DNA from: Cantharellus purpuraceus
Lineage: Eukaryota > Basidiomycota > Agaricomycetes > Cantharellales > Hydnaceae
Assembly: GCA_025174535.1 (NCBI GenBank)
Contig: JALBUN010000006.1
Coordinates: forward strand, 744,001 to 808,000
DNA length: 64,000 nucleotides
Direction of reading: 5' to 3'
Part shown: positions 23,325-64,000 of the stretch, piece after piece
Layout: every line of letters starts with the position of its first letter
How positions within the stretch are numbered: the stretch's first letter is position 1
Made by a program: the position numbers and the translations under genes
Notes under the pieces: model-generated
The model's input: only the letters and a program-made list of their open reading frames with translations
Database searches by the model: none
What the model was told of the DNA's origin: nothing

Positions 23325-23676
23325 GGTATCGGTGAAGTAGTTAATAGGGAAAGTGTTATGAGGTGTGGGGTCGTCTTATGAGCTTGATCTTCTGTGAGGG
23401 CGACGCTGATGACGAGGCCACAACAACAAGATACTCAATAAGTGAGAGCCGATAAGAAATAATGCCAGCTGGTACAGTGGATATCCTCAGTCTATACAGC
23501 TGTTTCTGATAAATACATGGGACTTACCTGGTACAGCGGATATCCTCAGAGATCAAGCTGAGGGGATCACACTGCACCAAGGCAAGTCTTTATACTAAAT
23601 GATGGAGATGGATAGGAGAACCAAGATAGGGGAGGAAAGATAGGGGAAGTGATAGGGGCAATGAAATAGGGGAGAC

Positions 23677-25128
23677 TGTTTTGGAACCCGCAAAATTATG
23701 GTGTTAGGGCAAACTCTAAATCACCACAATTCCGTGAATGAACAGCTGAGAAGAATATCAAATCCTACTGCAGCACAACTCCAGAAACGATTTAACGTTT
23801 GTACTTTGGTTACAATCCGTTGTAATGGTCAATGCAGACGATACGCAGGAAGGTAATACGTTTCTTAGCAGTAGGGAATGAATAAGACTTCCAGAGTCTA
23901 GAGTTCACGGACGCTTAGGGGTCCAGATATTCCAAAAAGAGGGGAATGCACTTAGAGGCTAGAGGAAGTAGGTGGATGAATCCGACCGTCCAACCAGTGA
24001 CACTCTGAAGCGGGTAACAGCGATGTGTGAAGTAGTCTAGCAACTGCTTCACACGAGTTCAAGATTCTAATGCTCTGCAAAGGCAGTACACACTAGTAAC
24101 TTAAACAAGAGCACTAATGGCAGGACTATCGACAGACAATCTCACCCTGTAGATTCGTAGTCACGCGAGGTAGATACTACACTCACGCCCAAAGCAGGAC
24201 AATCACTACTTCGAGTGCAATCGAATACAGTTACACAACTGTAAGCGACCCTTGAACTGGACAATCAACAGTTACTGAGATATAGAGGATGACACTGTAT
24301 GTCACTCTAGTCACACTGATGTGCAAATGATGGGGTAGAAATGGTTATTTATTCAGAGGCAGAATGGGCTCCTTTTATATTGTATTTACAGGAGCTGACT
24401 AATACTACTGGAAACTTCTACCTATTAATAGATGGAAACTACTGGAAGCTAGTGGAATATGTGAGAAGGGGGTGGAAGTTTCCTAGCCAATGAGCTGCTT
24501 GATTTGCTCTGACTCATGGCATGAGTCATGGATGGAGTCATAGTGTGACTCAGAGCAGGAGTCATAGTATGAGTAATCACAGGAGTCATGGTATGAGTCA
24601 TGGAAGGAGTCATAGCATGAGTCATGGCAGGAGTCATTGCATGAGTCACCATTACTCAAATAACTCGGTCACTACTTCGTTTCCCAGGCTGATTAGCACA
24701 GCTATGGGTAGGCATGGCTTCTATTGAACTCTCCACTGAAAATGGAGTCAGGAGGTGCAGTGGTTGCGAAGATATTGAGCATTTACTGGCAGTGGTGACC
24801 AGATTGAGTCGGAGATTGAAATGAGTCATGTGATCGACAATGAGTCAGTTGTCCGGGTGACTCCGGCTGACTTTGAGGCTGCTGACATCTGCGAAGGTTT
24901 GTGGGTCCATGTGGGTCCCAAAACTTCGCCCAGCAGAACAATAAGTTTGTAGACTCATTTCTGCATGGAAAATTCCCAAAAAAATATGAAAAAATAGAGA
25001 ATATTTGAATGGCCCTGAATCAAGAGAAAGCAGCAGATATATGCTGATATTTTAAGGCCATCAAGCGAAATTGTACAGTTTCGGGACTTTAAACAAGATC
25101 TTTTTAAGGGAAAACCAGTTCCCATACA
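23677..25128 (-). mobile_element. Solo LTR, family A, inserted in the chromovirus LTR
   Basis: 1,452 bp, TGTTTTGGAAC..CCCATACA, with 5-bp target duplication GAGAC. No coding frame of note. On the minus strand it has a TATA box (about 24380) followed some 30 bases on by GAATAAATA, so it reads as an LTR oriented minus (TGTATGGG at its 5' end, GGGTTCCAAAACA at its 3' end). Related copies: 25212-25555 (partial), 37053-41251 and 38019-40253. Confidence 0.8.
24520..24660. repeat. Minisatellite based on GAGTCATGG
   Basis: About ten imperfect copies of a roughly 12-14 base unit built on (AT)GAGTCATGG(CA), inside family-A LTR 23677-25128. Open frames over it on both strands are repeat artefacts. It is absent from the other family-A copies here. 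Confidence 0.75.
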
Positions 25129-25211
25129 GAGACGCACCCTGACAGGCTGTGCTGATAGGGGTGTCAAGAGAAAATACTAAAAATAGAATATGACTTATTT
25201 GAATCCTGACA

Positions 25212-25555
25212 CTGTTACCTGCTTCAGAGTGTCACTGGTTGGACGGTCGGATTCATCCGCCTACTTCCTCTAGCCTCTAAGTGCATTCCCCTCTTTTTGG
25301 AATATCTGGACCCCTAAGCGTCTGTGAACTCTAGACTCTGGAAGTCTTATTCATTCCCTACTGCTAAGAAACGTATTACCTTCCTGTGTATCGTCTGCAT
25401 TGACCATTACAACGGATTGTAACCAAAGTACAAACGTTAAATCGTTTCTGGAGTTGTGCTGCAGTAGGATTTGATATTCTTCTCAGCTGTTCATTCACGG
25501 AATTGTGGTGATTTAGAGTTTTCCCTGACACCATAATTTTGCGGGTTCCAAAACA
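25212..25555 (+). repeat. Truncated family-A LTR
   Basis: Reverse complement of the first 345 bases of 23677-25128, nearly identical by eye, ending in GGGTTCCAAAACA. It abuts the outer end of the chromovirus 5' LTR directly and lacks its other 1.1 kb. Together with 23677-24020 it forms a long inverted repeat. Confidence 0.85.
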
Positions 25556-26887
25556 GGTGCAATGGGACAGGGAAAAGGAAGCCCAGGATAATGGAAATGA
25601 TGTGGCAGTGGTTTCCATGGAACAGGTCACAAATGGGAATGCCAGGAGCACCACTCCTCTGGCTCCTGTGAGTGGGAACTAAGGTTTGAATGAGCACAAC
25701 CATGCAGTTTACTGAAAGAACCCCCCTTCTTATGTTTGCCATTTCTGACCACATTTTGTTCACTTGCCACCTGATTTAATTTGAATGATTACCGGTTTAC
25801 TTTTCTTACAATAGGCTGCATATGCAAATTTATATCATTCTACATTGGAATTATGGTTGTCATCGTTGATGACGGCGAGCATGCTTTAGATGAGCGGGGA
25901 GGACTGGCGCACCCCCATATTTGGCGAAGACAATGTGTAATGATTTTTTATTTTATTGCAAAATTCGCATCTACATAGGACTCGTCAGTGTCATTGTCGA
26001 CGATGACGAGCACAGGCTTTATATGAGCGGGGAGGACTGGCGCACCCCCATATTTGGACTTAGCTGGCGAAGAGAATGCGAAAAGATTTTTATTTTATTG
26101 CAAAACTCGCATCTACAGTGGAGTTATCGTGCCGGCATTGTGGAGTACGGCTAGGCCGGTGCTGGGCGTTTTTCAACCATGTAAGCGCCAGATGATGCTA
26201 GTTCGCCGGTGTTCAGCTTGACCGATACATAACAGCTCACCTCTGGAATTCCCTTCGTTCCCTGGAATAACAGCTGGAATACACTCACCGCGGCGTAAAA
26301 GCGAGTTAGACTGAGACCACACATGCGTGGTCAGCGGCTAAATGGCTTTGAATCGGATGATATACAGGTGGAGGTTCGTGTCGAGGCGTTGAGCGCTGAG
26401 AGCTTCTCATACGTGTGGCCGGCAGTAGGTATGGCCGGCCGCGCGTGCTCTCCAAAGGTGCCCAGTAACCTGGCCAGGAGCCTGAGGCATTATTTTTCTA
26501 AGGTGAGAATTAAATATGGTATTATTCATTATAAGGCTGTCATTGTGAAAACTACCTACTTAGATGGGTCGCCCGGCCCGACACTACCATCTAACAAGCT
26601 GAGTCATGCTGGGTACCCCAGGTGGCGGCCGTACTGCCGCAAATGAATGTGAAATTCATATATGTCTTACACGTGTGCCTTCGAAGCAGGCTTCGTGACT
26701 GTTGTTCCAGCAGGTATCACCGGTATATACAGTGCAAAGCAATGTGAATACCAATAGATGACCTTATCAAGGTTCGCTTCGCACCTCACCCCAGACCACA
26801 GCGGCATCACTCTTACTCCGACCATCCTAACCGCGGCTTGGTACTCATTATATTTTCCAACACTTGCCTCATCTACTCCAATTCAAG
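25556..26887. other. No gene recognised; contains a tandem duplication
   Basis: Between the truncated LTR and the TKL-KH gene. It contains the 25861-26115 duplication. A 107-residue open frame at 26323-26646 has no recognisable family. The promoter of the TKL-KH gene should lie in its last few hundred bases. Confidence 0.4.
25861..26115. repeat. Two tandem copies of a ~127-bp unit
   Basis: Both copies contain GAGCGGGGAGGACTGGCGCA, CCCCCATATTTGG and TTTTATTTTATTGCAAAA; the second has a small insertion after ATTTGG. Confidence 0.8.
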
Positions 26888-29800
26888 ATGAATACTCCAT
26901 ACAGTAGTAACTTAAATGATAGAGTGGCACTCTTGGAAAAAGTCTTCAAAGGCAAGGCAGGCCTAGACTATCTGCGCTCCCTACGAGGCCCTGAGGCTGA
27001 ACGCGCTCTTGGATTAATGCAAATGGTGATCGTGCATCCTAGCTGTACGGATACTGGCACTAATACGCCCCCACCAAACCGTAGGAGCTCGATGCGCCGA
27101 CCGGGTTCGGTGCAGGCAATGTGGTGAAAGCCATGAAGACGTTGTCGAGTCACTCAGGCCAATTCCCACCAACCTATTGGTTACGTGATGTCAAGCGTGG
27201 CGAACACGTCGAGTCAGGAGGTACTGGCCATGTTTATACAGGCGAATGGCATGATCAGTTGGTAGCAGTGAAGTTTGTACGATACTACCAGTCGGAGGCG
27301 GGAAAAAATACTGAACTGTACAAGGTAAAAATAGGACACAACACCCATATGAGTGCCTCTCATGTTTGTCACCATTATAGCAATTTTGTCACGAAGTCTT
27401 TCTGTGGCACCGATTGTCACATCCCAATATCCTGCCTTTCCTTGGACTGTATAAGGATGGACTGGAACGCGCGATGGTCTCAAAGTGGCAGCACAATGGC
27501 AACTTGACCAAATTCCTGAAGAATAATCCAGACGTGGACAGATACGATCTTGTAGGTTCATTGCGCAATCGCCAGAGTTTTTATTTTCATCCCTGGTTCC
27601 CAGCTTGTGCAGGCGACGAATGGCTTGGCGTACCTTCATGACCAAAAGCCTCCCGTAGTGCATATGGATCTAAAGCCAGTCAGATCTTAGACGTATATTC
27701 TACGTGGACTCGGCTCCTGATATGATAACTAGGAAAACATCCTGATCAGTGATACATACAAGGCGATGCTCGCCGACTTTGGATTTTCTCGGATGAAGCA
27801 TGATCTTTCAGGTGGTTGGACATCAACTGCCATTGGGTACACAAAACGATATTTTTCTCCCGAGTTGCTAAAGGAAAATACAGAGGTAACTGTCCACAGC
27901 GACATCTGGTCTCTCGGGATGGTTATTTTTCAGTGTTTACCGGAAAATTGCCTTATATGCGAGAATGTCCAAAAGGAGCAGAATACTTTATACGGATTCA
28001 AGAAGCGACTCCTCCCCAGAGACCTCTATTCAGTATGATGGACAAGAGCCGGGGTTTGATGGATGATGTATGGGCATTCTTGGAACAGAACTGCTGGGCA
28101 AAGACAAAGCGTCACAGGCCTCTAGCTCGTGATTGTTTTAAAAGGCTGAAGGAATTGAAAGACAGATGGCTATCTAAGAAAGCTTCCACGATACCTACGG
28201 TAAGCGTTTACCTATGAAGAGGTCGAATATATTAATCACATCATTAAAGAAAACGATTGAGGGAAGTGGATTATCTATCAGATCTGCCTAGTGGCCTAAC
28301 ACTACTGGTGTTCAGATATGCCTCTTTCAATCAGAGAGCTTGAACAGTCACTTCTAATGATTGTACTAGCTCCAGGGTGAAAAGGAAAACGTCCTTGCTG
28401 CGAAAGCTGAAATAATAAGTGATATGGAGACACTGGTGTGTAATGATTGGAATCACCTTAGGTCAGAGTCTCACTAGGATACCAAAAGGCAGATAAATGC
28501 TCCCAGACTGTGTCCATCCCTACTCGCTTTCATGCCTCTCTTATTGGTAAAGGCGGTGAATCAGTGAAGGCCATGGAACAAAAACACTGTCAGAATCTAT
28601 TTTGACTCAAAGGAGGAGACGGCAGAGATTGAGGGTGCGTCTTCTGATGTGTCCAAAGCACGGGATGAGTTGATATCAGTCCGTGTTTCTTTGCTTGAGT
28701 TTCATTTGGTCATTGACACGTGGCATTCACAGGCTGTTGAATCCCGTCAATGTTTGGATGACTTCTTGGAAATAGAAGTTTCCAACACGGTCTCCACCCA
28801 CGTCCAGGACAATCGAAAAGAGATATCCTACCAGCTTAAACTTCGAGAATTAAAGTCTCTTGCCGGTGCAGTCATCTATATGAGAGGACCCAAGGACTCG
28901 CTGGAGGCTGGACAGAGATACTTACGCCGATTAAAAGAATATTTCGATAAAGAAGTCACGGAAACCATCGAAGGAGAGGCAAACCTACTTCGAAAAATCT
29001 TCAAAGACCCGTCATGGCTTGAAATTGTGAAGCGATGCGGCGGACCTTCTGACCCAGTCATGCAGAAGAGACTGGTTATAGCGTAGGCATCTCATCTTAG
29101 CTTCGCAGTTATCGCTTTGTTCAGATAGCTTTCACAGGCTATTGACTGATGAAGAGCAATTTTCTCTCCGCGCAGCTCCAGAGCTCTTACAAAAACTGAC
29201 GTGTGCACTTGAACGGGAAGTTGAACGTCGGCGAAAAATTGTAATCGGGGTGGGGATCCCGCAAGATTTACACAGAAACTTGTTACTTGAACATGGGATC
29301 AAGGACATGCAACTAGCCACTAGTACCTCAATTTACTTCCCACGGAGCGACAGTTACTCTAAATTCGATCCCTCGAATTCCCTCGAATTGACTGCAGATG
29401 ACAAAGACATTGTGAAAATACACGGCACACGTCAGTGCTGCGATAATGCAAAGAGAGAACTAATGGTTCGTTCTCTCAACTAGATGTTGTACTGAACCTA
29501 CGCTGAGCTTTTTTCAGAAGCGAGTAAAACAGGAATGTCAATTGAGACGTAAAATCCCTGTCAGTCCCAGACTTGTAGGTGATTTGGCAGGACGTCGTTC
29601 TTAGTGAGCTAAAGCGCAATATGATGCAGCATCACAAGACTCATAAGCTCGTGTTTCGGACGCTCAAGGCCAGCAACATTGAGGTTGAGTCACAGCCCCC
29701 TCAGCCCCTCATTCCGCTAGACGACAATTACCCAACACCGCTACCACTCACGAGCATGGAGCCTTCGTGGGAACAACACAAGATATATAGAAATGAGCAT

Positions 29801-30182
29801 GTCGAGAATTTAGAGTGCACTTGGCTGCTCAGAGCGAAAACCGAAGCCGATTTGGAAAGTGCACTCGCAACCGTGAAAAGAATCCTTCAAAAAGAAATGC
29901 ACAATTCATGGAAAGGGCTGCTCACCTTCCCCACGAATTCAGTCTTTGGACGCATTGTTGGAATAGAGGGCGAAACTGTGAAACGTCTACAAGAAATGAC
30001 AAAAACCGAGATTGATGTCTCCAAAGGAGAAGGGACTACAATTACAATAATTGGTCAGTAGATCCTCTTGTTGTGGAAAGGACTGACTAAAGTCTATTTA
30101 AGGTCCAAGAAGAGGGCTAGATCAGGCGAAAGACATCATATTACAGATGGCTTCCCCATGGAAGACAGTATCAAATGAATAA
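26888..30182 (+). pseudogene. TKL-type kinase fused to a KH-domain array, frameshifted
   Basis: ATG at 26888 (MNTPYSSNLNDRVALLEKVF), then a kinase: glycine loop ESGGTGHVYTGEW, lysine in LVAVKFV, HMDLKPENIL loop (Met replaces the HRD arginine), DFGFSR, SPELL and SDIWSLGM. Near 27934 one base is missing (frame resumes at VFTGKLPYM). After the kinase come KH domains of the vigilin/Scp160 kind: RFHASLIGKGGESVKAM (an extra A near 28580 breaks it), a degenerate pair to 29086, VGIPQDLHRNLLLEHGIKD (29240 on), a segment broken near 29600, and FGRIVGIEGETVKRLQEM with a final exon ending at 30182. Introns elsewhere keep phase. With three frameshifts it is probably a recent pseudogene, unless they are sequencing errors. 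The same architecture is open at 61046-64000; a third partial copy is at 54925-55453. The likely ancestral role is RNA-linked signalling (inference). Confidence 0.75.
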
Positions 30183-36862: not shown

Positions 36863-38180
36863 AGGCACTGATGTCACTGTGACATTAACCAGGGTGCCTA
36901 CTGCAGCTCACAATGTCATCAAATCCTCTCATAGCTGACTGCATATAGTATGTGAAACCCGGTCATTATGCATTATGACTGGCATAATTTTAGGTATGTT
37001 AACAACTCAAACACTGTATGGTTGCTGAGGAGTATCACAGCAGTTACAACATTGTATGGGAACCACCTTTTCCCTATCAAATTCCATTTATGCAGCACCA
37101 ATGTGCTATTCTTTGCTTTTCCATTCCTAAATATCAGCATATATTTGATGCTTGTACCTGGAATGGACTTATTCAAATATTCTCTATTTTTCCATATTTT
37201 TTCAGGAATATTCCATGCAGAACTCGGCTCAGAATCATTTATTTCTGCTGTGCTACAGTTGTGGACCCATAGGCGCCCACAAACCTTCCCACAGCCGGCT
37301 CTCCCCTTTTGGACCAGGCATTCGACCTGAATTCAAGCTCAGATGTCTCTGATCAATAAATATTCTGTACCTGGACAACCACAGCCTCTCAGGGCACAAT
37401 TTTCTGTGGAGATCATCACCTGAGATGTGGCTATCCATGGCTGTCCAAACCAGTGCAGAAAACAGGGTGAACACCCTTCTTTTTGCCTGATCAGTGCCTA
37501 GTTCAGGGATCAGATCAGCTGATGGGTGATCAAATCAGGTGATTGCCTTGGAATATTCTACCCCTTTCCATAACATTCTAGCTGTTTCCCTCTATTATTA
37601 GATAGAACTTTCCAGAACCATTATTCAGCTCCTGATCAGTGTTAGTCCAGTGATCAGAACCTGTGATTGGCTTGGAATATTCTACCCCTTTCTTCCACCT
37701 TCCACAACCTTCCAGTAGTTTCCATCTATTAATAGGTAGAATATTCCAGAACCATTAGTCAGCTCCTGTAAATACAATATATAAGGAGGTCATTTGTTAT
37801 GCACTAGGTCCGATTTGGGGTCAGAGATTGGATTGGAGGTTGGGTCAGAGGTTGGGTCAGAGTCGGAGTATGTCATGGGGGTTGGAACGGACTTGGCTTC
37901 AGCTTATGTGCTGCGCCCTCACTAATACCGGTGTCCGAGATTTCAGAGACGGAGTACGACTTAGAGAGTTAGGATCGGACTTAGGAGCTAGGCATGATTC
38001 GATATTCAAACTGGGGAATGTTTTGGAACCTGCAAAATTATGGTGTTAGGGAAAACTCTAAATCACCACAATTCCATGAATGAACAGCTGAGAAGAATAT
38101 CAAACCCTGCTGCAGCACAACTCCAGAAACGATTTAATGTTTGTACTTTGGTTACAATCCTTTGTATTGGTCAATGCAGA

Positions 38181-39579
38181 TGTTGGGGTATATGCAGTTC
38201 TAAACTACTTCAAATAAGGACTATCATTTAGTAGTTTAAAGGTATTTCAAATGTTCTATTGAATGTACTTATATTTCGCTTTTTTGTGTATTTGAGCCCA
38301 CAAGTGTACACAAGGGGTCGGTTGCTGATATAATCTGTCATTCAACTCCGACGAGCACTCACGCGCGAGCGAACAACGTGCGCATTACATAATCATCAGA
38401 GTTCGCGCACTTCAGCCAAAAGTGGCCACAGAAGGTTCTGACACCTTCCTGGACCTTCCACAAGGTTCCCCAGCCATCTCTTTCCTTCCAGGGGCTTCCC
38501 TAAGCACCGGGAATGTTCTCTGATTAGTTACATAAGCTAGATAGTCCATGTATATAAAAAGGGCTGCAACAGCAGTGCAATAAATAAGATCTTTTTACCA
38601 CACACACACAGCAGTGTCTACTCAAGCATTGAGTAATCATCACATAAGCATCACGCTTATATCAGCTACTCTTAGTGTATATTAACTTTGATTGACTCTC
38701 GGAGAAGCCAGAAGTTATTATATTACAAGCACAGCAGGCTCTAATATTAATCAAACTCGGAGAAGAGGTTAATACAGAGTAACTGATTAGTAATTAACAC
38801 ACTACAAGCCCACTCGGAGCAGTAACTTGAAGTGTATTAATTGTTATTCATTGATCAAGAACCTTACATGTGTAATTGAGACTCTGAGGTTAGCCAAATT
38901 ATCACGTATCGGGCTATTGGTTATAATCAAGAATCTTGCACGTTTAATTGAGACTCTGAGGTTAGTCAGGTTAATACGTACTAGGCTATTGATTGGTCAA
39001 GAATACTGCACGTTTAATTGAGACTCTGAGGTTAGTCAGGTTAACACGTACTTTGCTATTGATCGGTTGGTTCAATTGTGGGCATTTCAATAAATCAACA
39101 ACACAGTCTATTAACTCACCTCTTTGAGACGAGATTAATATCCCTTGACTGTTGATTCTATCACGGATAAACACGTACAGTGAATACGCTTGTTCAGAAG
39201 GAAGTGTTCAAGTGCATATCTATCTTTTTACGTTGAAGGGTAATATTATTGTTAGCTTTAATCCACTCACCCGCGGTACTAAGGCACTAGGTTACTTCCC
39301 CCTTTGAAGTATCTGAACCCTTGAACACCTGTCAATCTTTGACTTTACATTGCATCAGCAGTAAAGTGTGAACTACACGTGACAAGCATAAATCTCTATT
39401 GCTTCACTTCCTGTGGCAACATTGATTGTGATTGCTCACCAGAGTATAATTTCTTAATTGGGTTCTCCATTAAAATAGTTTCAAGCTTATTGCTAGCCTT
39501 GAAAGGTCATACATCCTCGGGCTAAACTTAGATTGTGATTAACACCACAGTTTAGGTTGAAGTTCACGGTTCCAAAACA
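38181..39579 (+). mobile_element. Solo LTR, family D, innermost nest level
   Basis: 1,399 bp, TGTTGGGG..GGTTCCAAAACA, flanked by GCAGA (38176-38180 and 39580-39584). It contains a TATATAAAAAGG promoter at about 38550 and AATAAATAAG about 30 bases on, as in LTR R regions. The last 12 bases equal the 3' end of family A although the rest is unrelated. Confidence 0.85.
38868..39070. repeat. Three tandem ~70-bp units inside family-D LTR
   Basis: Three copies of TTAATTGAGACTCTGAGGTT.AG followed by ..TACGTA..GGCTATTG and TCAAGAAT.TTGCACG. Confidence 0.8.
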
Positions 39580-41706
39580 GCAGACTATATGCAGGAAGGT
39601 AATACGTTTCTTAGCAGCAAGAAATGAATAAGACTTCCAGAGTCTAGAGTTCACGGACGCTTAGGGGTCCAGATATTCCGAAAAGATGGGAATGCACTTA
39701 GAGGCTAATAATAGAGGGAAACAGCTAGAATGTTATGGAAAGGGGTAGAATATTCCAAGGCAATCACCTGATTTGATCACCCATCAGCTGATCTGATCCC
39801 TGAACTAGGCACTGATCAGGCAAAAAGAAGGGTGTCCACCCTGTTTTCTGCACTGGTTTGGACAGCCATGGATAGCCACATCTCAGGTGATGATCTCCAC
39901 AGAAAATTGTGCCCTGAGAGGCTGTGGTTGTCCAGGTACAGAATATTTATTGATCAGAGACATCTGAGCTTGAATTCAGGTCGAATGCCTGGTCCAAAAG
40001 GGGAGAGCCGGCTGTGGGAAGGTTTGTGGGCGCCTATGGGTCCACAACTGTAGCACAGCAGAAATAAATGATTCTGAGCCGAGTTCTGCATGGAATATTC
40101 CTGAAAAAATATGGAAAAATAGAGAATATTTGAATAAGTCCATTCCAGGTACAAGCATCAAATATATGCTGATATTTAGGAATGGAAAAGCAAAGAATAG
40201 CACATTGGTGCTGCATAAATGGAATTTGATAGGGAAAAGGTGGTTCCCATACAGGGAATGAAGTCCCCAGTTGGGCAACTTAAATACATATTTGAAATCT
40301 AATAATAATTACTCTGGTGATGGGTCTCCAAGGCCGATGGCCTTACGTGAGTATGTCCGAGTCCGATGGGGACGGATGTCTGGGTTCCTATGGTGATGCT
40401 GATGCATCAATCGGAACCGGAGACGGATGGGTGGAATCGGCGGTGACAATCGGACAGGTAAATGGAGATGTAGCGGTTTCCAAATGGAGTATATTTCATA
40501 TGCGCAGGGATCTGAGGGGATCGGATGGGGATCTGGGCGTTAATGAATATAGTCATAACATCATTCTGCCTCTGAAATAGTAACATATTCTACCACTTCT
40601 ACCCATCTTCTGCACACCAGTGTGACTAGAGTGACATACAGTGTCATCCTCTATATCTCAGTAACTGTTGATTACCAGTTCAAGGATCTTTTACAGTTGT
40701 GTAACTGTACTTGATTGCACTCAAAGTAGTGATATTCCTGCTTTGGGCGTGAGTGTAGTATCTGCCTCACATGACTACAAATCTACAGGGTGAGATTGTC
40801 TGTTGATAGTCCTGCCATTAGTGCTCTTGTTTAATTTACTAGTGTGTACTGCCTTTGCAGAGCATTAGAAGCTTGAACTCGTGTGAAGCAGTTGCTAGAC
40901 TACTTCACACATCGCTGTTATCCGCTTCAGAGTGCCACTGGTTGGACAGTTGGATTCATCCACCTACTTCCTTTAGCCTCTAAGTGCATTCCCCTCTTTT
41001 TGGAATATCTGGACCCCTAAGTGTCCATGAACTCTAGGCTCTGGAAGTCTTATTCATTTCTTGCTGCTAAGAAACGTATTACTTTTCTGCATATAGTCAC
41101 CAATACAAAGGATTGTTGCCAAAGTACAAATGTTAAATTGTTTCTGGAGTTGTGCTGCAGCAGGGTTTGATATTCTTCTCAGCTGTTCATTCATGGAATT
41201 GTGGTGATTTAGAGTTTGCCCTAACACCATAATTTTGTGGGTTCCAAAACAAACATGTCTTGTAACATTGTACCATGGCATATGTATTGTTGTTTATGGA
41301 TGACAGTGGTTTCCTCGTGCTTGGCCATTCACAGCCCTCTATGGCAAATACTCTTCTGTTCCAAACTTTGAAGTTGCCAACATTCTATGTAGTGACCTCA
41401 CCAATGCGCCACCATCACCAACCCTTGTGTCCTGCTGCTAAGAGACACAAGGAGCATAAGATATATTTTCCCCAGGTTCTTAGGTAGAGTCATCCAAGTT
41501 AAAGACTGTGCTGGATAACTTTGCTTACTGCATCTATCTTAGTTTTGTGAAGGGTGTGAAAGACCCTCTTGCCTGCTCCAACAATGGTGGATTATCTCTC
41601 CCTGTACAGCATTGTTTTAATGCTATATTTTTCAACATTCTGCCAATTGCATATATAAGGGAGACAATATTGGACCCTACTCAGTACAATTTTTTTCTTC
41701 ACATCA

Positions 41707-51929: not shown

Positions 51930-52580
51930 TCACCATAAGGTTCGGAATATGAAACTTTTGTACCATTTGCATATCTTCGACAGACGTACATCGAGGTGCT
52001 GTAGGGCTTGGAGACGGTCGTGAGGATTAGCACCCTGTTCAGCGGGCTGCGACTGGGACGTCTCAGACCACTTGGATATTTCCGATAGGAAATCATCCAT
52101 CTGCTCAGGATCAAAGGTCCCACTCGCCTTTCGACGTTTGGGGGGCGTTGTGGATGAACCTGTCAGATGTGGTATAGGCATCATGGTGTCTATGGAGTCT
52201 AGGGATCGAGTCAACAACCCTCTTTGGGGGAATTATGGGCGTGCTACAGTACGCACTGTCGACCCTGCCGGTGGTCTTTGATGCCTCGCACTGGTCATAT
52301 AACCTACCATCCCTGTCCCCCCGCTGAATGCCCGTATTAGGGCGTGACGCATTTGGTGGGGCACTTGCCGGCAGGTTTTTTCATATTCGAGTTTTGCGAG
52401 GCATCTTGTGCCATCGTGGAGGTGCTCACGCAACTTTCTGGAGGGATAATGGAGCATCTTCCCCTCCACCCTCTATGAAATGGTTCAATAATAATAGTAC
52501 GAGGAAGGACCTTGTGTCTACCCTCTGCATCTAGCTTGGCAATCTCTGTGGCAAGAGCTTCGTCGACCTTGATACCAGAG
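51930..52580 (-). pseudogene. Unrecognised triplicated gene, copy 1 (truncated)
   Basis: Retains the middle and 3' exons (for example ASGTFDPEQMDDFLSEISKW) but loses exon 1 after the codons corresponding to GIKVDEALATEIAKL. Upstream sequence is replaced by a short foldback (52557-52615), and the promoter present in copies 2 and 3 is gone. The stop used by the other copies is mutated, so the last exon reads on to about 51930. Probably inactive. Confidence 0.55.
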
Positions 52581-52615
52581 GCGTATTGCCTCCGGTATCA
52601 ACGTCGACAAAGATT
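52557..52615. repeat. Short foldback at the truncated copy
   Basis: Imperfect inverted repeat: CTTCGTCGACCTTGATACCAG..GGC followed after GTATT by GCCTCCGGTATCAACGTCGA. The right arm is an inverted copy of exon-1 sequence. Confidence 0.7.
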
Positions 52616-53384
52616 ATGAAGAGTGCACAAGCTAGCTTGCCTCCCGGAAGAGAATAGCATGGAGAGAATGTTTCCTGGGGTTTAGTTGCCATTTATTTCT
52701 TGCCTGCACGGGGATTGGTAGTGCGTGTTGAAGCACCTCTCAACAGACCGAGATCCCATTAGTCTATCTTTCTAGGTTCCAACCTTAACTTTTGTGGATG
52801 TTCAGCCGGTTCCTTTACAGGACCTCAGATCTCAGAGCCCGAGACTTTTGTCAGTCCATCCTCCTAGCTAATGATGCAGCGTCAGTTGGATCAATCTAGA
52901 GCGTGACAAAATGTTCCCTCACCCAAGACGCTGGCAGGAGAAGGATTGAAACATATGTTGATAACGCTCATTAGCCCCGAGGCCTGCCGAAATCCAACAC
53001 TTAGGTGTAGAAAGAAAGGAAGCACTGCGTGCACGCGTTACAGGTTTCCAAACTAGCACGCTTATTTTTACCTGCGAATATCATCATTATGCTACAGTCA
53101 TCAGGGCAAATCCTATCGTGGAATGTGCTCTCAAGATCTCAGGTGTCGGCAACCTCCGATCTTTATATCACTATGTCTTTTCATATTCATGATTTCCCTT
53201 GTCCCCACTTCACTCTTTGCAGAAGACAACTCTGCGAGCAAGCGAGCAGGCAAGCAAGCAAAATAAACTTATCGGAATAGGATGTGGCTAATACAAATAG
53301 TACATAGGGTTCATGTTTGATCTTTGACAGACATACATCGAGGCCCCATAGGACTTGGAGATGAACGCGAGGGTTCATCGATTA

Positions 53385-54051
53385 GCATCCTGTTCAGCAG
53401 GCTGCGTCTGTGATGTCTCAGACCACTTCAATATCTCCGATAAGAAATCGTCCATCAACTCGGGGTGGAAGGTCCCGCCCGCCTTCTGATGTTTATGGTC
53501 GGGTGCTGTCACTGTGAAAGAACGTGGTTACTGATATGACCATCGCGAGGTATAGGTCATTGCGGACGAACCAATCATTTTTGGCATTGATGTGGTAGTG
53601 TCTGTGGAGTATAGAGATTGAGTCAACAACCCTCTTGAGGGAAATAATGGGCGTGCCACTGTACGCACTGTTAGCACTGTTGACCCCACCGGTGGCCCCC
53701 GATGCCTCGCACTGGTCATGGGGATCATATAACCTACGGTGCTTGTTCTCCCGCTGCATGCCCATATCAGGGCGTGACGTTTTTGGGGGGGTACTTGCCG
53801 GCAGGTTTTTTCTTTGATGTTCGGTGCGAGGCACCTTGTGCCATTGCAGCAGGTGCTCTCGCAACTTTTCTGGAGAGATAATGGGCCTTCTCTCCCCTAC
53901 ACCCGCTGTGAAATAGTTCAATAATAATAGTACGAGGAAGGACCTTGTGCCTACCCTCTGCATCCAGCTTGGCAATCTCTGCGGCGAGAGCTTCATCAAC
54001 CTTGATGCCAGAAGCAAGAAGAACATTTTGAAGAGAATCGTTGTAAGACAT
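53385..54051 (-). CDS. Unrecognised triplicated gene, copy 2
   Basis: ATG at 54051 (MSYNDSLQNVLLASGIKVDE), exon 1 to 53955, a 58-base intron, then a long exon in phase from 53896 (ERRPIISPEKLREHLLQWHK..., YDPHDQCEASGATGGVNSAN, KNDWFVRNDLYLAM). A probable second intron (donor GTAACC near 53535) leads to KAGGTFHPELMDDFLSEILK and a stop at 53387-53385, about 200 residues in all. The protein is hydrophilic and moderately basic in the middle, with no signal peptide or membrane segment. I recognise no family. A minus-strand TATA box lies about 70 bases upstream. Copy 3 preserves the same frame, which supports it as a real gene. Confidence 0.5.
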
Positions 54052-54129: not shown

Positions 54130-54924
54130 CCTGCCACGCTACTCATATATCTACCAAACTTCTTCAGACAAGCTCCGACTCGGTTCACTAGTGTTGTGTT
54201 CTGCCGAGATCTGAATTGCCGGGTGCGCCTTTTTCGTGAATTCTTTAATACATCGCTAGACACGACATGATAAGCCAGTTGAAAGTAAACGGTACACTTC
54301 CTTGTTTTTCAGATAGGTATGGTCCGCAGCATGCCTAGAAACTTTATACCTGTCACTCGGTTGGTCGGATATGGGAATAATACTAGTATGTACCACTACG
54401 CCAATTTGCTTCCGACTCGTGCATGATATATAAGCTGCTGGACTTTGAGCCTCATGAGTATTATCATTCACTTTGCCACCCCTTCCCCCTTTATATCTAG
54501 CATCGTGGCAGGAGGATTTGTCTTCTCATCTTCCCAGTCGAGGTTGGATTAGCCAACAGCGGGAGTTGAGCTGACAAACTGCATTTATTATCTCTATCCA
54601 GACCGTTCCAGTCACAAGTACGTTGATATCTAAGAAGAGCTGTGGTAGACTGAGCATAATGACTAGGTATGTGCATTTTGACAAGTGATACGGCTCATGC
54701 ATAGGAAATACATGACCAAGGTAGCCGTCTCCATCATCCCCATTCCCTTTATCTACCTGGAGTAAGCTTGTGTTAGATGAAAGCAATGTGAACTTGTCGA
54801 CTGGGAGACACCGCCACTGGCGATGATTTAGAAATAGCTTTACTAAACCACAAACAATGGTGCACAGTCTTCGAATGCTGCTTACGATTCTTAACTACCA
54901 GTGCCACTCAGACAGTGGTTCAAT

Positions 54925-55453
54925 TTCCTTCAGATGCTCAAGGCTAGCAGCAATATTGAGATTGAGCCACTGCCTCTCAGCCACTCACCCCGCTAGACGA
55001 CAACCCCAACACCACTACCACTCATGAGCACGGAACCTTCGTGGGAACAACACAATATATATAGAGACGAGCATGTTGAAATTTCAGAGTGCACTTGGCT
55101 GCTTGGAGCAAAAACGGAAGCCGATTAGAAACTTGAAATGCAATCGCAACTGTGAGAAGCATCCTTCAAGATGAAATGCACAATTCATGGAAAGGGCTGC
55201 TTACCTGCCCCATGAATTCAACATTTGGACACATTGTTGGACTACAGGGCAAAGCTGTGAAATGTCGGCAAGAAAAGACAAACACCAGGATTCATGTCCC
55301 AAAAGCGGGAGAAGGGGCCACAATTATAATAATTGGTCAGTAGCTCCTCTTGAGGACGAGACATTATCTTTATGTAAGGTCCAAGAAGAGCGGTGAATCA
55401 GGTGAAAAATATAATATTACAGCTGGGCTCCCCATGGACGACAGTATCAAATG
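54925..55453 (+). pseudogene. 3' fragment of a TKL-KH gene
   Basis: Matches 29660-30182 plus a little 3' flank (to about 55490): GAACAACACAA.ATATATAGA, CACAATTCATGGAAAGGGCT and the KH end with ATAATTGGTCAGTAG then GGTCCAAGAAGAG. It carries internal stops (for example after KTEAD) and lacks kinase and upstream KH domains. The GxxG loop of the last KH is altered (HIVGLQGKAVK). Diverged clearly more from 26888-30182 than a recent copy would. Confidence 0.75.
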
Positions 55454-56203
55454 ATAATGACACAAATGTCATCCCAAGGATCTCATGAGAGAATGTTCCC
55501 TGGAATTTATTTTATTTCCTGTCTGAACAATGATTTGGTAGTGTGTTTTAAGCACCTTTCTACAGGCCTAGATCTCGTTAGTCTATCTTTCTAGATTGCA
55601 ACCTTAGCTTTTGTAGATATTCAGGCAGTTCCCTAAGGTCTTTAGATTTTAGAGCCTGAGCCTTATATTGTGGATGTGAATCCGTCCTCCTGGTCAGTTA
55701 TGCACCATCAGTTGAATTGATCTAGAGCACGAGAAAGATCCCTCACCCAAGGTGCTGGAGACGGGCACAGGAGATAGATTAACGCATATAAGTTTATCAG
55801 CCCTGAAGCCAGCCGAAATCCAACATTCAGGACAGGTGTAGAAAGAAAGGAAGTACCGCGTGCACGCGTACTGGTTTCCAAACTAGCACGCTTATTTTTA
55901 CCTGCGAATATCATCATTATGCTACAGTCATCAGGGCAAATCCTATCGTGGAATGTGCTCAAGATCTCAGGAGTCGGCAACCTCCGATCTTCATATCACT
56001 ATGTCTTTTCATCTCCATGATTTCCCTTGTCCCCGACTTCACTCTTTGCAGCAAACAACTCTGCGAGCAAGCGAGCAGGCAAGCAAGCAAAATAAACTTA
56101 TCGGAATAGGATGTGGCTAATACAAATAGTACATAGGGTTCATGTTTGATCTTTGACAGACATACATCGAGGCCCCATAGGACTTGGAGATGAACGCGAG
56201 GGT

Positions 56204-56878
56204 TCATCGATTAGCATCCTGTTCAGCAGGCTGCGTCTGTGATGTCTCAGACCACTTCAATATCTCCGATAAGAAATCGTCCATCAACTCGGGGTGGAAG
56301 GTCCCGCCCGCCTTCCGATGTTTATGGTCGGGTGCTGTCACTGAAAGAATGTGGTTACTGATATGACCATCGCAAGGTATAGGTCATTGCGGACGAACCA
56401 ATCATTTTTGGCATTAATGTGGTAGTGTCTGTGGAGTATAGAGACTGAGTCAACAACCCTCTTGAGGGAAATAATGGGCGTGCCACTGTACGCACTGTTA
56501 GCACTGTTGACCCCACCGGTGGCCCCCGATGCCTCGCACTGGTCATGGGGATCATATAACCTACGGTGCTTGTTCTCCCGCTGCATGCCCATATCAGGGC
56601 GTGACGTTTTTGGGGGGGTACTTGCCGGCAGGTTTTTATTTTGATGTTCGGTGCGAGGCACCTTGTGCCATTGCAGCAGGTGCTCTCGCAACTTTTCTGG
56701 AGAGATAATGGGCCTTCTCTCCCCTACAGCCGCTGTGAAATAGTTCAATAATAATAGTACGAGAAAGGACCTTGCGCCTACCCTCTGCATCTAGCTTGGC
56801 AATCTCTGCGGCAAGAGCTTCATCAACCTTGATACCAGAAGCAAGAAGAACATTTTGAAGAGAATCGTTGTAAGACAT
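56204..56878 (-). CDS. Unrecognised triplicated gene, copy 3
   Basis: Near-identical to copy 2 in exons, introns and about 750 bases of upstream sequence. ATG at 56878 (MSYNDSLQNVLLASGIKVDE); the second exon reads ERRPIISPEKLREHLLQWHK and continues in frame. Differences are mostly single bases (for example Gln to Asn in PRTEHQNKN), plus a 3-base deletion near 56343. Stop at 56206-56204. Function unknown. Confidence 0.5.
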
Positions 56879-57745
56879 GATGAGTTCAAGTCTTGACCAC
56901 AGGAAGTGAGGGGTGGGGCTTGATGGATAATGGGCACGCCCAGCTACACTTTATATCCTGCCACGCTACTCATATATCTACCAAACTTCTTCAGACAAGC
57001 TCCGACTCGGTTCACTAGTATTGTGTTCTGCCGAGATCTGAATTGCCGGGTGCGCCTTTTTCGTGAATTCTCTAATACATCGCTAGACACGACATGATAA
57101 GCCAGTTGAAAGTAAACGGTATACTTCCTTGTTTTTCAGATAGGTATGGTCCGCAGCATGCCTAGAAACTTTATACCTGTCACTCGGTTGGTCGGATATG
57201 GGAATAATACTAGTATGTACCACTACGCCAATTTGCTTCCGACTCGTGCATGATATATAAGCTGCTGGACTTTGGGCCTCATGAGTATTATCATTCACTT
57301 TACCACTTCTTCCCCCTTCCTATCTCTAGCAGCGTGGGCAGGAGGGTTTGGAGGTTGGATTAGCCGACAGCGGGAGATGAGACAAACGTATTTAATACCT
57401 CCATCTAGACCGTTCCAGTCACAGCACGTTGGTATCTAAAAAGAGCTGGCGGTAGACTAAGAATATGTGCCTTTTGACAAGTGAATACGGCTCATGCATA
57501 CAGGAAATACATGACCGAAGCAGCCAATGCAGCATCCCCATTCCCGTCAAATACTGTATTCTTTATCCACCTGGAGATAACTTGTGTTAGATGGAAGCAA
57601 ACTGAGCTCGGCGACTGGGAGACACCGCCACTAACGATAATCTAGTGTGACTTTACTACTAAACCACAAACAACGGTGCGCAGTCCTCGAATGCAGCTTA
57701 CGATTATTAACTGTCCAGTCCCACTCAGACGGTGGTTCGATTTCT

Positions 57746-58686
57746 TAGTGGTTACATCGATGCCCCAGAGTCCGATGCCACCGCCGACGCCGCCACCAGC
57801 GCCACCACCAGCGCCACCACCGAGGTACTCAGGTTCCTGGCAGCAACTCTTTGACCTTTCACTGCTAAGCACCCCCTGGGATGCAAAAGCGACTGTTTTC
57901 ACTAAAGAACGTGTACCGAGTTAGTAATTTGTCTGCGGACATTTGGTGGATATGCTCGTGGTGTGGCACAAGATACTCGGAGCGCACGACATCCCACAAT
58001 GACGCTGTTAACTTCCTCTCTGTTCATATGTACCACACATGCCACCTGCCCATTGCATTCTTTCAATGCTCCCGTGGCTTCTGATGCCACCATTGATGAC
58101 AACATCTCAAGCCGAGGCCTCATATCGATGAAGCCTTGAGTTCGGATATTGCTACCATGGTTCTATTCTGTTTGTCAATCTCGGTTTACACATAGTAGAG
58201 GACAAGAGACGAGGCGATGCACTGCCACAGTGGGTCCTTCTTCTCCTTAGCTTGACCACGCAATTGAGAAAGTAGATTGATGCCTTTCAGGGCCAACCAC
58301 CAAGATACCAGTGGAGTTGGCAAAAGTGGGACGCCAGTGTTGCCGCCATGATCGTTTGTTGACCCTAAATCGCACCGAGACGACCAAAACATGGGACTAT
58401 ACCCCAAAATACGACTCTATCCGGTATGTTAGTATACAACAACCCACTATGCAAAGGGTGACGTCAGGCGGAGCGTGACGGCCAATGGCGCACGCATATG
58501 CTTGTGGGTTCAAACACCAGAATGGGAGAGAGACCGCCTAAAAATAATTTTGGCACAGGCCTGTAATACTTAAAAAGACTTGTAATATCGAGCCTGTTGC
58601 GCTTGTACCTTAACAGGCTAATGCTTACACAAGCATTCCTCGTCTCAGTAGTCACATGACCATTTGCCCCCAATTTTCATAATCGA
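57746..58686. other. No gene recognised; GCC-type minisatellite
   Basis: Upstream of ELP5. Contains a short CCACCGCC/GCGCCACCACCA tandem tract at about 57775-57826, which creates proline- and glycine-rich frames on opposite strands. Nothing else recognised. Confidence 0.4.
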
Positions 58687-59991
58687 ATGGGACTGCTCTC
58701 CACGATCTTGACACCAACCCCACGCTCCCGCGAGACTCTGGTTCTTATCCAGAGCACACTGGCCACGCCGATGTGGCTCCCTCTCATGCATGCTATCGTC
58801 AACGCAGGCCCGACCAACGCGACGATTGTGTGCGTGTGTCTGCTACATCCGCCAGAGACGGTGCTTGCGGACCAGGCTGGAAAGTCCACACAGGGGGGGG
58901 TGCGAATCGTTGACTGGACAGAGAGGGTTCCGGGGTATGCGGAGGGAGATGTGGATGAGGATGTTGGTCGACACGGACTGTTGAAGGAAGTATGTAAAGC
59001 CATTGAAGATGGTGTGTACGTGTCTTTGAGGACGACCATCATATTAATGTTTAGCTATGGCATGTCGAAATACAGCACCAGATGGTCCTGTTATCCTCGT
59101 TGTAGACTCTCCCGACACTCTTTGTGAAGACGTCGAGTCACCCTCTAAGGCTTATTTGATTCTCAAAACATGGCATACTGCCATATCAAACCGACCTTGT
59201 TCGTGCTGGTTTATTACGGTCACATGTCAAAACTGACATGTCTAATTCTCATTCAGCACCGTCCCGCCTAGTACTCTCCCTCTCATCCCCCTCTCCCCTC
59301 CTCCCTCTCATCGTCCCCCCTGCCTTCGCCCCTTCCATTGCGCATCTTACCCTCCACCCCACCGCGCTACTCCGCCACCTCTCAACCGAATACCTTACTC
59401 TCCCCCCGCCATATTCTCCTCCAACGAAATTTTGGCCCATATTCGCCGGGCTCGCGACCCGCGGGGAGGGCGAGCGTCTCGTGTGGGGTGCAGACGGGAT
59501 GGGTTCGAGTGTCGAAAGTGTAGTTGAGGTAATTGTGAGAAGTGCTAGTGGGAGGAGAACGGTCGAGCGGAGTCTGGAGGGGTGGAAGAGCAACGGGGTG
59601 TGCAAGTTGGAGGAGTTGGAAGAATTGAGGGATATTTGGAGTAGGAATGGGGGCAGTGTGAGTTTGTTTTTTTCAATTATGCGTGAGAGGCATTGAATAA
59701 TGTCGATTTTACCCCTTCGTTTCATCTATTGCAGCCATCAGTGACGCCGGATCCAACACATAACCTTCCTTTTAACCTCAGTCTCACTGCGTCACAGCAA
59801 CAATCCCGTGCCCAAGTTCCTCTTCCATATGCCCATGAAGGTCCGACACTCTTCCGCATTGCATCATCTCCACTAACTTTGATGCAGGACAACCTAATGA
59901 CAATTCTAGCACGGGAGGTGCAATATATTATGATCCAGACTCGGCGGACGATATTGATGAGGATGATCCGGATGAGGATTTAGATATATAG
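58687..59991 (+). CDS. ELP5: Elongator subunit Elp5 (Iki1)
   Basis: Five exons: 58687-59011, 59055-59198, 59257-59657, 59735-59840 and 59888-59991, summing to 360 codons (359 residues). Elp5 with Elp4 and Elp6 forms the RecA-like hexamer of the Elongator complex that modifies wobble uridines of tRNAs in the cytoplasm. Seen: a RecA-fold-like N-terminus with hydrophobic strands (ETLVLIQSTLATPMWLPLMH, VILVVDSPDTL, SRLVLSLSSPSPLLPLIVPP) and the diagnostic C-terminus LPFNLSLTASQQQSRAQVPL followed by the acidic end YYDPDSADDIDEDDPDEDLD. That conserved tail is why I name it Elp5 rather than Elp6. All junctions are in phase; intact. Confidence 0.88.
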
Positions 59992-61045
59992 GCGACGGCA
60001 TTGTGGTAGGCGTTTTTCGTTGATATTTGAACCCTCGACTTTCTCATGGATTTTGCCCAGCTTTGGGGTGAATTCTCGAGACAATGCGCATCCGGAAAAT
60101 GGTATTTCGCGGAGGGGTGTATTAAAGCTATGAAATAGGTAATGCACCAGCAACGCATGTGGTCGATGGCTGTGCGATGCGATGCGATACTGTAAGTCTT
60201 GCGCTGCGGTGATACATTGTAGTGGGTGGCTTATGCTTGTATCTGTTCGATACTGAATTACAAACATCTCGTTAGTGCTGCCTATTGCTTGCCGTTAGAC
60301 TCGAAGGTTGACGATGTTAGAATTGTATCACGTCATAGTATGACGATAGTTGCATGTGGGTTTTTGTTTCCTAGGAGGCAAACGAAACGTTGAACTAATT
60401 TCTTCTGACCAACTAGAATACACTAACTGCAATGAGTAGCTAGATCAATTTCTATATCCCACTTATGGAGTAGCATATCTAGTTTAGAATATTCTAGATC
60501 ACTATTCAAAAGAAGAGGGGATGAATCGCGTTACTGTGATATGCCAGGTTTTTGCATTGTCGATGTATTCATATTATCCCATCGAGTGTAATCAGGTTTG
60601 CCACAGACGTAATTTTGTATTACATCTCACTACATGTCACAGAACTCATGACACACTCTTTGGCACAATGCCAGGTGGCGCTCCGAGTCACACACATGAC
60701 TCGAGAATGGACCTTCGTTATCAGTGCTGTGGCTGTGAAATAGTAAGCTTGCACCACCAGTTTTCTCTTAGTCTACAAGTTGCGCTTACAGGAGTGTAAA
60801 CTTGTAACAGAAATTTGAAAGAAGAACATGGGTTCCTCATGAATCATGAATTCAGGTCTGCCTCGTGCACGAGCGGGTTTCATAGCTGAAGTGACAATCT
60901 CTAGAGAAGAAGCCATGATGTTCTTGTGGCAGTAGCATCCAAACACGACCACAGGGAAGTGTGATACTTATAACAGACGGTGGTGTGAGCGGTGGCGGCA
61001 TAGGTCTCTCTACCTATCTCTACTTGACGCAGATAGCATACCTCG
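59992..61045. other. Intergenic, no gene recognised
   Basis: About 1 kb between ELP5 and the TKL-KH gene, tandemly oriented. Short unrecognised open frames; it should hold the promoter of the downstream gene. Confidence 0.4.
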
Positions 61046-64000
61046 ATGTCTCCCAAGACCCGACGCTCGTCTTCCTCTTCTGGATCTGTTTCCCTTCCAC
61101 CAATACTTCATAATATACCCAAAGTTTCCCCGGACCAAGCCATCGCTGGCATTCAACAGTTTGGCAAACAGTTGATGTTGAATCGGGTTTGTAATCGCTC
61201 TTTCATTGGATCCAGTGCTTGTCTAACAGACATTATAGTGCCAATTGAAGCGTCTTATAGCAGTTAGTCAGAACGCGTATGACAGCTCAGCTTGCAACGA
61301 GGAAGTTCAGAGGTAAGCGGTCTTCTGTAAAGACCTTCATGAGTGATGGAATGAGCAAAATGTATCCTGCGATTCGAGACTTCTCGCTAGAGTGTACACG
61401 CGCGGTCGAACATGGCGTTCAGTCGGTCCGCTGGAGAGCTTGGTCTTGCTCCCCGATGAAATGAAAACGCTTGAGACGGAGCTGAGTCAGTTTGGCACAC
61501 CGCAGGTTCGTGCGGTCTCCTGGAACCTATAGTCTATTCCTTACTTTCGATCAGTCATTTACATCCAGTCCGCAGGACGAGAGGTCCGAGAAAGCCGCTA
61601 TAACTTCGGCTTTCGAGCGAATTCTCTCAAATGAACAAACTCGGTCACGGGCAATGACTCTTAGAGGTCGTCCCGCAGAGTTGTTCGTTTCATACCTGCA
61701 GACGGTTTGTGTCTTCCTCCTTTCCCGTCACATAACATATAACCCACAATCACAGGCACTAGACCTGTCCCCCGAAATGAACTCTAAGGTTCGGGAGGAA
61801 TGGATCAAAGCGTTGCGAAAGTTGGCTGTCGATGCAGAAGTATTACCTTCAGATTTGAAGATTGAAGAGGTTACTCTTATCGGCACCGAGCCTGTGGCAC
61901 GTGGAGGATATTCTGATGTGTATCAAGGCAAATGGAAAGATAAGTTAGTCGCTGTGAAGCGACCACGTTACTTTACTGCCAAAGACAATTCGGAAGTTTC
62001 CAAGGTTAGAGTAGCTGACTTATTGGACAACCAAACTGACATGATCCTTCTTTAGCAAGTACGACGCGAGATATTGCTATGGCGTCAACTCTCTCACAAC
62101 TATATCCTACCACTCCTGGGTATATTCAATAAAGAAAATATATTGGATGATATGATCTCGGAATGGATGCCGAATGGGACTCTTCGCGCCTTCCTTGAGA
62201 AGAATCCGAATAGAAACCGGCTACAATTGGTTTAGAGCGCAACCTTTACTCGTGCTGCACAGGTATTCTAACACAGTGGATGTAGCTTTGCCAGGTTGCC
62301 TCAGCTCTGAAATACCTTCATACTCATTCACCACCTATTGCGCACGGCGACATAAATGCGGTGAGCTTTTATGTCATCCATAAAATTCTCTCTTTGATAT
62401 TTTAAGAGGAACATATTTGTCAATTCTTCTGAATGTCCAGTAATTGGCGACTTCGGCCAGTCTTGCCTACGCTATACCATTGATAGGACTCTGTCTTCTA
62501 CACTGGAGGGCGGATCAATAAGGTGGATGGCACCGGAGCTTCTTCTTTCCAATTCCATTGGTGATTATGCCAGTGTGATCCCTACCCTTGAAAGCGATAT
62601 GTGGTCCTTCGGGATGCTCGTGCTCGAAGCATTGACAGGGGATGTGCCATATGCAAACATGCCTGACCTAGCCGTATTCCTTTGTCTCACACAGAAGCAG
62701 GAGTTACCTGCACGGCCGAGCTCACATATCACTGAACGTGGTTTAACAGATGATATCTGGAGGCTCCTAAATAGGTGCTGGAATTTTACGCACCCGAAAG
62801 AAAGGCCCTTGGCGACTGATTTACTGGAGCGACTCAAAACGTTGTCACGAGACATACAAATAACTGCAGAGAATGAACGCACAGTAAGAGCACTTCTTTT
62901 GTCTCTAGACACTGCAAAAATAACAATCCTTAGAAAACCGTGTTTATCCCAAAGACACTGGTTAAACAGATTATTGTTTCTAATGCTGCAACTTGGAAGG
63001 ATGTTAGAATTGTTGAGGAAAGTAAAACAACCATCCAGAAAAATACGCATATGGCCATCTTTCAGGTAAGATCATCGTCTCTGAAATTAGTGGCTACTTC
63101 AAGTCACAGCCTCTTTGTAGGTAATAGGACGCGCTGTACCGGTTGCTGCGGCTTGTCTTCGAATTGAAGATTCGATCAAGAAATCTGTATGCCACTCATA
63201 TCTTTCTGCTGTAGGAAGTGACTAAAAGTCGCAGGCGGACGTTCGTGTGACAGATAATATGAATATCCCAAAAGAGTATTACAGTCGAATGATTGGATAT
63301 AAACACTGCAATCACCGCAAGTTGGAGAACTTACATGGGGTTCAGGTTACTTTTCCATCCAAACAATCACCGAGCTCCCAAGTTTCTATTACGGGGTCTG
63401 CGGAAGCGGTTAAGAAAACGAAAGACAGTCTCCGCGAGGTACTCATCCAGCTTCACCGTTTCACTGTTACTGATTGTCTTGATTCAGTTGCTGTGGTTCG
63501 AACGCAATTCAAGGGATGTACTCGAAGTTTCTCCTCGTGTTGCAGAAAAAGTCGACGAACAACGAAAACGCATCCTTCGGTCACCTTTATGGGGATTGAA
63601 AGTGGAGTATCAAGGTGATAGGGCGACAATTACGCTTCGAGGGAAAAAGGAAGGGATAATTATCGCGCAAAAGAGCATACGTGCTATAGAAGAGGAAGTC
63701 AAACGGGAAATTACAGAGGACATCCCTCTAGACGCCTTTCTTCATGGCATGGTCGTATCTGACCGTCAGGCCTGGGTCGATATCGTCGATCGGTGTGAAG
63801 GACCGCCACACCCTGACTCCGACGAGTATCCTTTCGTATTGTCCATGTAAGCCTGTCATTTGCGACTTAATATTCTAAATGTTCACTGGTTGTAGATCAC
63901 CTAACAGCATACAAGTTCGTGGGCCACCAAACCTTGTTAAAGCATTACGCACGGAAGTAGGCGAACTCGGAAATATTGGCCACGACTATGTGTTAGCCAA
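61046..64000 (+). CDS. TKL-type kinase fused to a KH-domain array, 5' part
   Basis: ATG at 61046 (MSPKTRRSSSSSGSVSLPPI); continues past the right edge. N-terminal exons (QLKRLIAVSQNAYDSSACNE, LLPDEMKTLETELSQFGTPQ) lead to a kinase: ARGGYSDVYQGKWKDK glycine loop, lysine in LVAVKRPRY, SHNYILPLLGIF, HGDIN in place of HRDxKxxN, GDFGQS, MAPELL and SDMWSFGMLVLEALTGDVPY. HGD loops are common in agaric TKL kinases. From 62935 onward the chain is KH-like: VFIPKTLVKQIIVSNAATWK with VIGRAVPVAAACLRIEDSIK across an intron, then IPKEYYSRMIG...NHRKLENLHGVQ, and a degenerate unit (VSPRVAEKVDEQRKRILRSP) closely parallel to the 26888-30182 gene. Splice junctions keep phase and I see no frameshift. Expected to be cytoplasmic and RNA-associated, by analogy with vigilin/Scp160 (inference). 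Confidence 0.75.

Follow-up and report, generated by a model that had tools for sequence, protein, structure and literature searches.

Does a protein kinase gene in Cantharellus purpuraceus really run on into an array of KH domains, and if so, how did the two parts come together and what could such a tail do for a kinase? The window analysed here is a stretch of 64,000 nucleotides (C6:744001-808000) in an assembly of 40 Mb and 50 contigs. The preliminary description had placed both parts in one gene at 61046-64000, with the reading phase kept from one into the other, and both statements held up. Gene A forms a single closed frame of 15 exons encoding 1021 residues without an inner stop; its 14 introns, of 46-78 nt, all have GT-AG ends, and the phase is unbroken through all 15 exons. 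Splice sites were picked by hand and checked against paralogues and vigilin, with the start codon of A assumed. A continuous predicted gene in which a KH array follows a TKL-type kinase is thus well supported. Its features are as follows:

61046..64000, running on to 64900 past the window end, plus strand: kinase-vigilin fusion gene A (hand-spliced model)
61046-61186, 61239-61312, 61391-61505, 61576-61704, 61756-62004, plus strand: exons 1-5 of A
62056-62229, 62295-62360, 62407-62883, 62934-63065, 63121-63186, plus strand: exons 6-10 of A
63235-63438, 63488-63846, 63896-64229, plus strand: exons 11-13 of A, the last crossing the window end at 64000
64287-64755, 64824-64900, plus strand: exons 14-15 of A, past the window end
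61888..62835 (introns included), plus strand: protein kinase domain of A, residues 198-459 (Pfam PK_Tyr_Ser-Thr, E 4.7e-35)
62884..62933, plus strand: junction intron between the last kinase exon and the first KH exon, 50 nt, phase 0
62934..64000, on to 64900 past the window, plus strand: KH array of A, colinear with vigilin KH8-KH14 (vigilin-tail profile and alignment)
63253..63432, plus strand: KH9 unit of A, residues 548-607 (Pfam KH_1, E 1.2e-13; also found in the whole-genome KH search)
63488..63846, plus strand: exon 12 of A, KH10 and the start of KH11, Pfam-silent, with a type I KH fold predicted by AlphaFold2

Just beyond the window, 3' of A, lies a reading frame that by eye resembles a small heat-shock (Hsp20) protein (L009, ~5759-6250).

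A genome-wide kinase search placed the kinase domain of A identically, and the motifs RGGYSDV, VAVK, HGDINARN, GDFG, APE and DMWSFG are present, so that the catalytic Lys, HxD-N, DFG and APE of a TKL-type kinase domain can all be found. Because these catalytic residues are in place, the kinase of A is likely active. A second intact kinase-KH gene, C, lies outside the window, 6 kb ahead of its first base and ~67 kb upstream of A:

C6:737654-734228, minus strand: gene C, 13 exons, 894 residues

Its kinase was recognised by Pfam (Pkinase, E 7.9e-35), with HMDLKPEN and ADFG read from the alignment, and is 37% identical to that of A. The two are sisters with moderate support (SH-aLRT 90) in a quickly built 40-row tree, made up of 34 hand-picked fungal matches, four outgroup rows, A and C, without tyrosine kinases or named FslK rows. 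The relatives of the C kinase are mostly Agaricomycete kinases at roughly 29-37% identity (best scorers among the 120 of 2738 matches listed), and A and C branch among or beside them. The closest described kinases are the Agaricomycete TKL group TKL-ccin and FslK, a related lineage confined to fungi (PMC3937382). Kinases of this kind are reported there to have expanded, and by their domain labels, among the matches listed, they bear varied extra domains; unlike A and C, none carries a visible KH_1 label among the 120 of 2738 matches listed, the labels of one of these being truncated.

Vigilin carries ~14 KH domains along its length, of which A and C keep only the last seven, the first half being replaced by the kinase. 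KH units are numbered here by our own count in the Cantharellus anzutake vigilin P0121 (14 counted). The separate vigilin gene of this genome (C12:783244-787638; 3' half spliced by hand) matches P0121 in five pieces at 48-63% identity. Across KH8-KH14, A and C can be aligned with three fungal vigilins, and a profile built from the 3' halves of these three, including the genome's own, scored A at 89.3 bits in two pieces in order (E 5.4e-27), against 4.3 bits for the best of 500 shuffled versions of the A KH part. The pieces of A reach KH12; the placement of its KH13-14, the most divergent of its units, comes from the alignment alone. C scored 173.1 bits in three pieces in order, reaching KH14. 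Identity over the KH part is 24% between A and C, 25% between A and vigilin and 30% between C and vigilin, compared with 57% between the genome's own vigilin and that of Cantharellus anzutake.

Further comparisons are in line with this. In the protein search the C KH part gave five matches, all labelled KH_1 and KH_Vigilin, the best being Cantharellus anzutake P0121 (E 3.6e-36, 25% identity over 92%) and the remainder Rhodosporidiobolus nylandii, Bemisia tabaci and two nameless proteins; against solved structures, its top two matches were vigilin KH domains (E 2e-4 and 8e-4). The same search with residues 475-987 (of 1021) of A gave no match. Three Pfam KH_1 stretches were found in the KH part of C (E 7e-32) and one in A, where KH9 is the only unit to pass. 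The claim of several KH repeats in A therefore does not rest on Pfam; it stands through the vigilin-tail profile and the alignment. For the Pfam-silent exon 12, AlphaFold2 predicts the strand-helix-helix-strand-strand-helix order of a type I KH fold (mean pLDDT 70.5, in the 80s across residues 11-70), and the top Foldseek matches in the PDB are KH domains (best E 8.4e-3, none <0.001). Judged by these comparisons and by shared intron positions, the KH array of A and C is descended from vigilin, as the preliminary term "vigilin-like" had implied. Another multi-KH locus (L013, C1:3284592-3285272) has three KH_1 matches; among the kinase matches listed none fell there, and no match to vigilin P0121 was found.

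The exon structures preserve the manner of the join. C exons end at residues 46, 130, 187, 209, 365, 402, 422, 486, 602.67, 712, 726 and 868.33, while A has three additional N-terminal introns, beyond which its exons end at 153, 236, 294, 316, 475, 519, 541, 609, 728.67, 840 and 996.33. Thus 11 of the 12 C introns have a counterpart of the same order and phase in A, the exons between them being of similar length, and the unmatched one is a 70-nt intron in KH13. An apparent frameshift and stop in KH13, present also in the decayed copy B described below, had at first suggested that C was broken. This reading was dropped, as the stretch is an insertion relative to vigilin and can be read as a GT-AG intron of 70 nt; we infer such an intron, which would make C intact. 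The protein search, structure search, intron comparison with vigilin and kinase tree used the earlier version of C with an X in KH13.

From its first codon onwards, the first KH exon of the fusion matches the vigilin exon located directly after the intron preceding KH8, and this intron is of phase 0 in vigilin, A and C. Among the seven internal introns of this half of vigilin, three recur in the fusion (phases 0, 0 and 2) and four are absent: the first coincides in A and is displaced by two columns in C, the second coincides in both, and the third coincides in C but is displaced by 12 columns in A, where the alignment is gappy. Three other introns common to A and C (phases 0, 0 and 1) are absent from the genome's own vigilin. 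By a rough simulation with two-residue tolerance, the chance of three intron matches of six is ~2e-4, and of two 6e-3. The join is most simply read as an exon-joining event inside an intron. That 11 of 12 introns are alike despite 24% identity of the KH parts points to one old event behind A and C rather than to a gene-model error.

The GXXG loop is the main RNA contact of KH domains, and the parent vigilin binds mRNA. In vigilin and Scp160 most KH units have the loop (six of seven in this half of the genome's own vigilin), whereas it is lost in all seven units of A, whose single GXXG-like string falls outside any loop, and in five of seven in C, which retains GEGG in KH9 and GTQG in KH14. Since no KH unit of A keeps the loop, the label "RNA-binding kinase" is doubtful for A, and its KH array probably docks on proteins instead. 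KH units devoid of GXXG can fail to bind RNA, as described for the extended di-KH of KHNYN and N4BP1 (PMC11997328). There too KH units accompany an enzyme, one of them is without GXXG, and no RNA binding was measured according to that account; the di-KH can thus serve as a model for KH domains as a docking module, although these are animal proteins with a ribonuclease and two KH units, an architecture unrelated to the kinase fusion of A and C.

The reading that best accounts for these observations as a whole, to which we give a probability of roughly 0.55, is an exon-joined TKL kinase with a vigilin tail, anchored at ribosomes or mRNPs. The 5' part of an Agaricomycete-type TKL kinase gene would have been joined, within a phase-0 intron, to the 3' half (KH8-KH14) of a vigilin (Scp160) copy. 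The product would be a kinase of the Ser/Thr type that the C-terminal half of vigilin keeps at ribosomes or mRNPs, from where it could phosphorylate nearby translation or RNP proteins. Yeast Scp160 associates with polysomes, and anchoring is supported in that the fused part corresponds to its C-terminal half and that its C-terminus is reported to crosslink to eIF1A and to Asc1, a 40S protein (PMC6492140); human vigilin is likewise described as contacting the 40S subunit (PMC9117268). Against anchoring, KH13-14, the end nearest the yeast contact, are the most divergent units in A, and one proximity study reported more, not less, Scp160 near Rps2 without Asc1 (PMC6912217). The single Pfam KH unit of A also counts against the reading as a whole, as do the 12-column displacement of the third vigilin intron in A, the hand-picked splice sites and the assumed start codon.

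Alternatively, the KH array could still be an RNA-binding guide, making these proteins true RNA-guided or RNA-regulated kinases, as the preliminary description had proposed. The three Pfam KH_1 stretches of C and its loops in KH9 and KH14 speak for this, as does the mRNA-binding ancestry of the tail. The losses of GXXG throughout A and in most units of C weaken it, and in human vigilin KH5-9 are reported to bind RNA with almost full affinity, the C-terminal five KH domains having bound one mRNA region more weakly (PMC9117268). Such a role is therefore unlikely for the pair, the part that survives being that C may touch RNA via KH9 and KH14. Protein docking at ribosomes or mRNPs is favoured, most strongly for A, because the loops are lost and units without them can lack RNA binding (PMC11997328); residual RNA contact would be possible in C.

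The other copies in this genome bear on whether A and C are maintained at all. Besides A and C, the kinase-KH set comprises two near-full-length decayed copies and seven further short matches; those with defined features are:

Window 26888-30178, plus strand: B, decayed copy of C with lesions relative to it
C6:1.400 Mb (L012): A', a recent duplicate of A and a pseudogene, by comparison with A
Window 54747..55487, plus strand: short 3'-end remnant of a C-type copy (blastn; C6:798929-799447 in the DNA search)

B is the second locus at which the preliminary description had seen both parts. It does hold both, but as a pseudogene, so that within the window only A is intact and the second intact gene is C. 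Compared with C, it has lost 104 of the 111 bases of the first KH exon (exon 6) together with the donor, 1 bp in exon 5 and 2 bp in exon 8, the latter two being frameshifts. Divergence between B and C, with C exon 11 taken as unbroken, is uneven (exon 4, 0/66; exon 2, 43/240; exon 10, 42/328), and because it jumps between exons it suggests gene conversion between them. A' has lost a splice donor and carries five small exon deletions, one exon insertion and two stops. A DNA search with the KH12-14 end of C found nine places, namely C, B and seven more, one of them a match of 114 bases at C6:499996; in the other six, which were read with their surroundings (L011, L017, L018, L019, L020 and window 54747-55487), no kinase part was found among the matches listed.

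Several repeats accompany these copies. Sequence from the 3' end of C and its 3' flank recurs as a dispersed repeat that is 5'-truncated and retains its introns (L010, L011, L017, L018, L019, L020); the copies differ in truncation point and have their downstream sequence in common. A segmental duplication of ~10 kb relates window 54747-64000 to C6:1393036-1402621 (L011, L012), 600 kb off on the same contig; its main pieces are 92-95% identical, and the duplicate carries A' and a C-type remnant. Direct repeats at window 53203-53814 and 56032-56641 lie 2.8 kb apart at 98-99% identity, and a third copy, at 52025-52582, has diverged further. Dispersed repeats at window 23675-25556 and 37053-41251 recur beside the duplicated copies in L011 and L012.

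A, and perhaps C, could themselves be on the way to decay, as young chimeras that have no settled function and drift as the pseudogene copies do. Two near-full-length copies are pseudogenes and most of the others 5'-truncated remnants, the KH parts of A and C are so little alike, and pN/pS between A and A' is 1.09 over the kinase, with no sign of constraint on that part, which also counts against the anchored-kinase reading. Over the N-terminal and KH parts, the same pair gives 0.32 and 0.41, and B and C give 0.48 (N-terminal and kinase), 0.96 (KH 366-602) and 0.48 (exon 10), all of them weak values because they are simple counts on pairs that include a pseudogene. The lower A-A' values argue against drift, as does the retention of long closed frames over many exons in A and C despite very large divergence; this alternative is slightly less probable still than RNA guidance. 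That hand-made models have wrongly joined two separate genes, or that a retained junction intron yields kinase-only products (a kinase-only form of A is possible, as its last kinase exon, unspliced, stays open up to 63069), is very improbable, given a gap of just 50 nt between the exons in A and 116 nt in C, vigilin homology that starts in phase at the first codon past the intron, and an identical join kept in both divergent copies.

TKL kinases and vigilin are ancient, well-known modules. Their combination may be new: a literature search of titles and abstract starts, not exhaustive and in part covering 15 of 354 and 15 of 35 papers, found no earlier description of a kinase fused to an array of KH domains. 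Proteins that combine the two parts were likewise not found among the matches listed in searches with the A KH part, the C KH part or the C kinase, and the five vigilin-type matches of the C KH part bear no kinase label; each search scored ~8000 word-sharing candidates, and as distant KH arrays share few words, absence elsewhere is weakly indicated. As to the family that had been proposed, two intact genes stand, accompanied otherwise by decayed copies and short matches in one genome, the window's own assembly being the one covered by the genome searches.

A join at a phase-0 intron, kept in copies that differ at ~3/4 of aligned KH residues, makes a clear case of exon joining and a new signalling architecture. 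More tentatively, and with less confidence than the reading of the gene itself, a fungal lineage may have evolved ribosome- or mRNP-anchored kinases by joining exons of a TKL kinase to half a vigilin. If so, a kinase would have been built into a ribosome-docking protein, as opposed to being recruited through a separate adaptor. Should the tail still find ribosomes, these genes would give direct access to kinase signalling at ribosomes engaged in translation, and would serve as a natural experiment that tells the protein-docking KH domains of vigilin from those docking on RNA.
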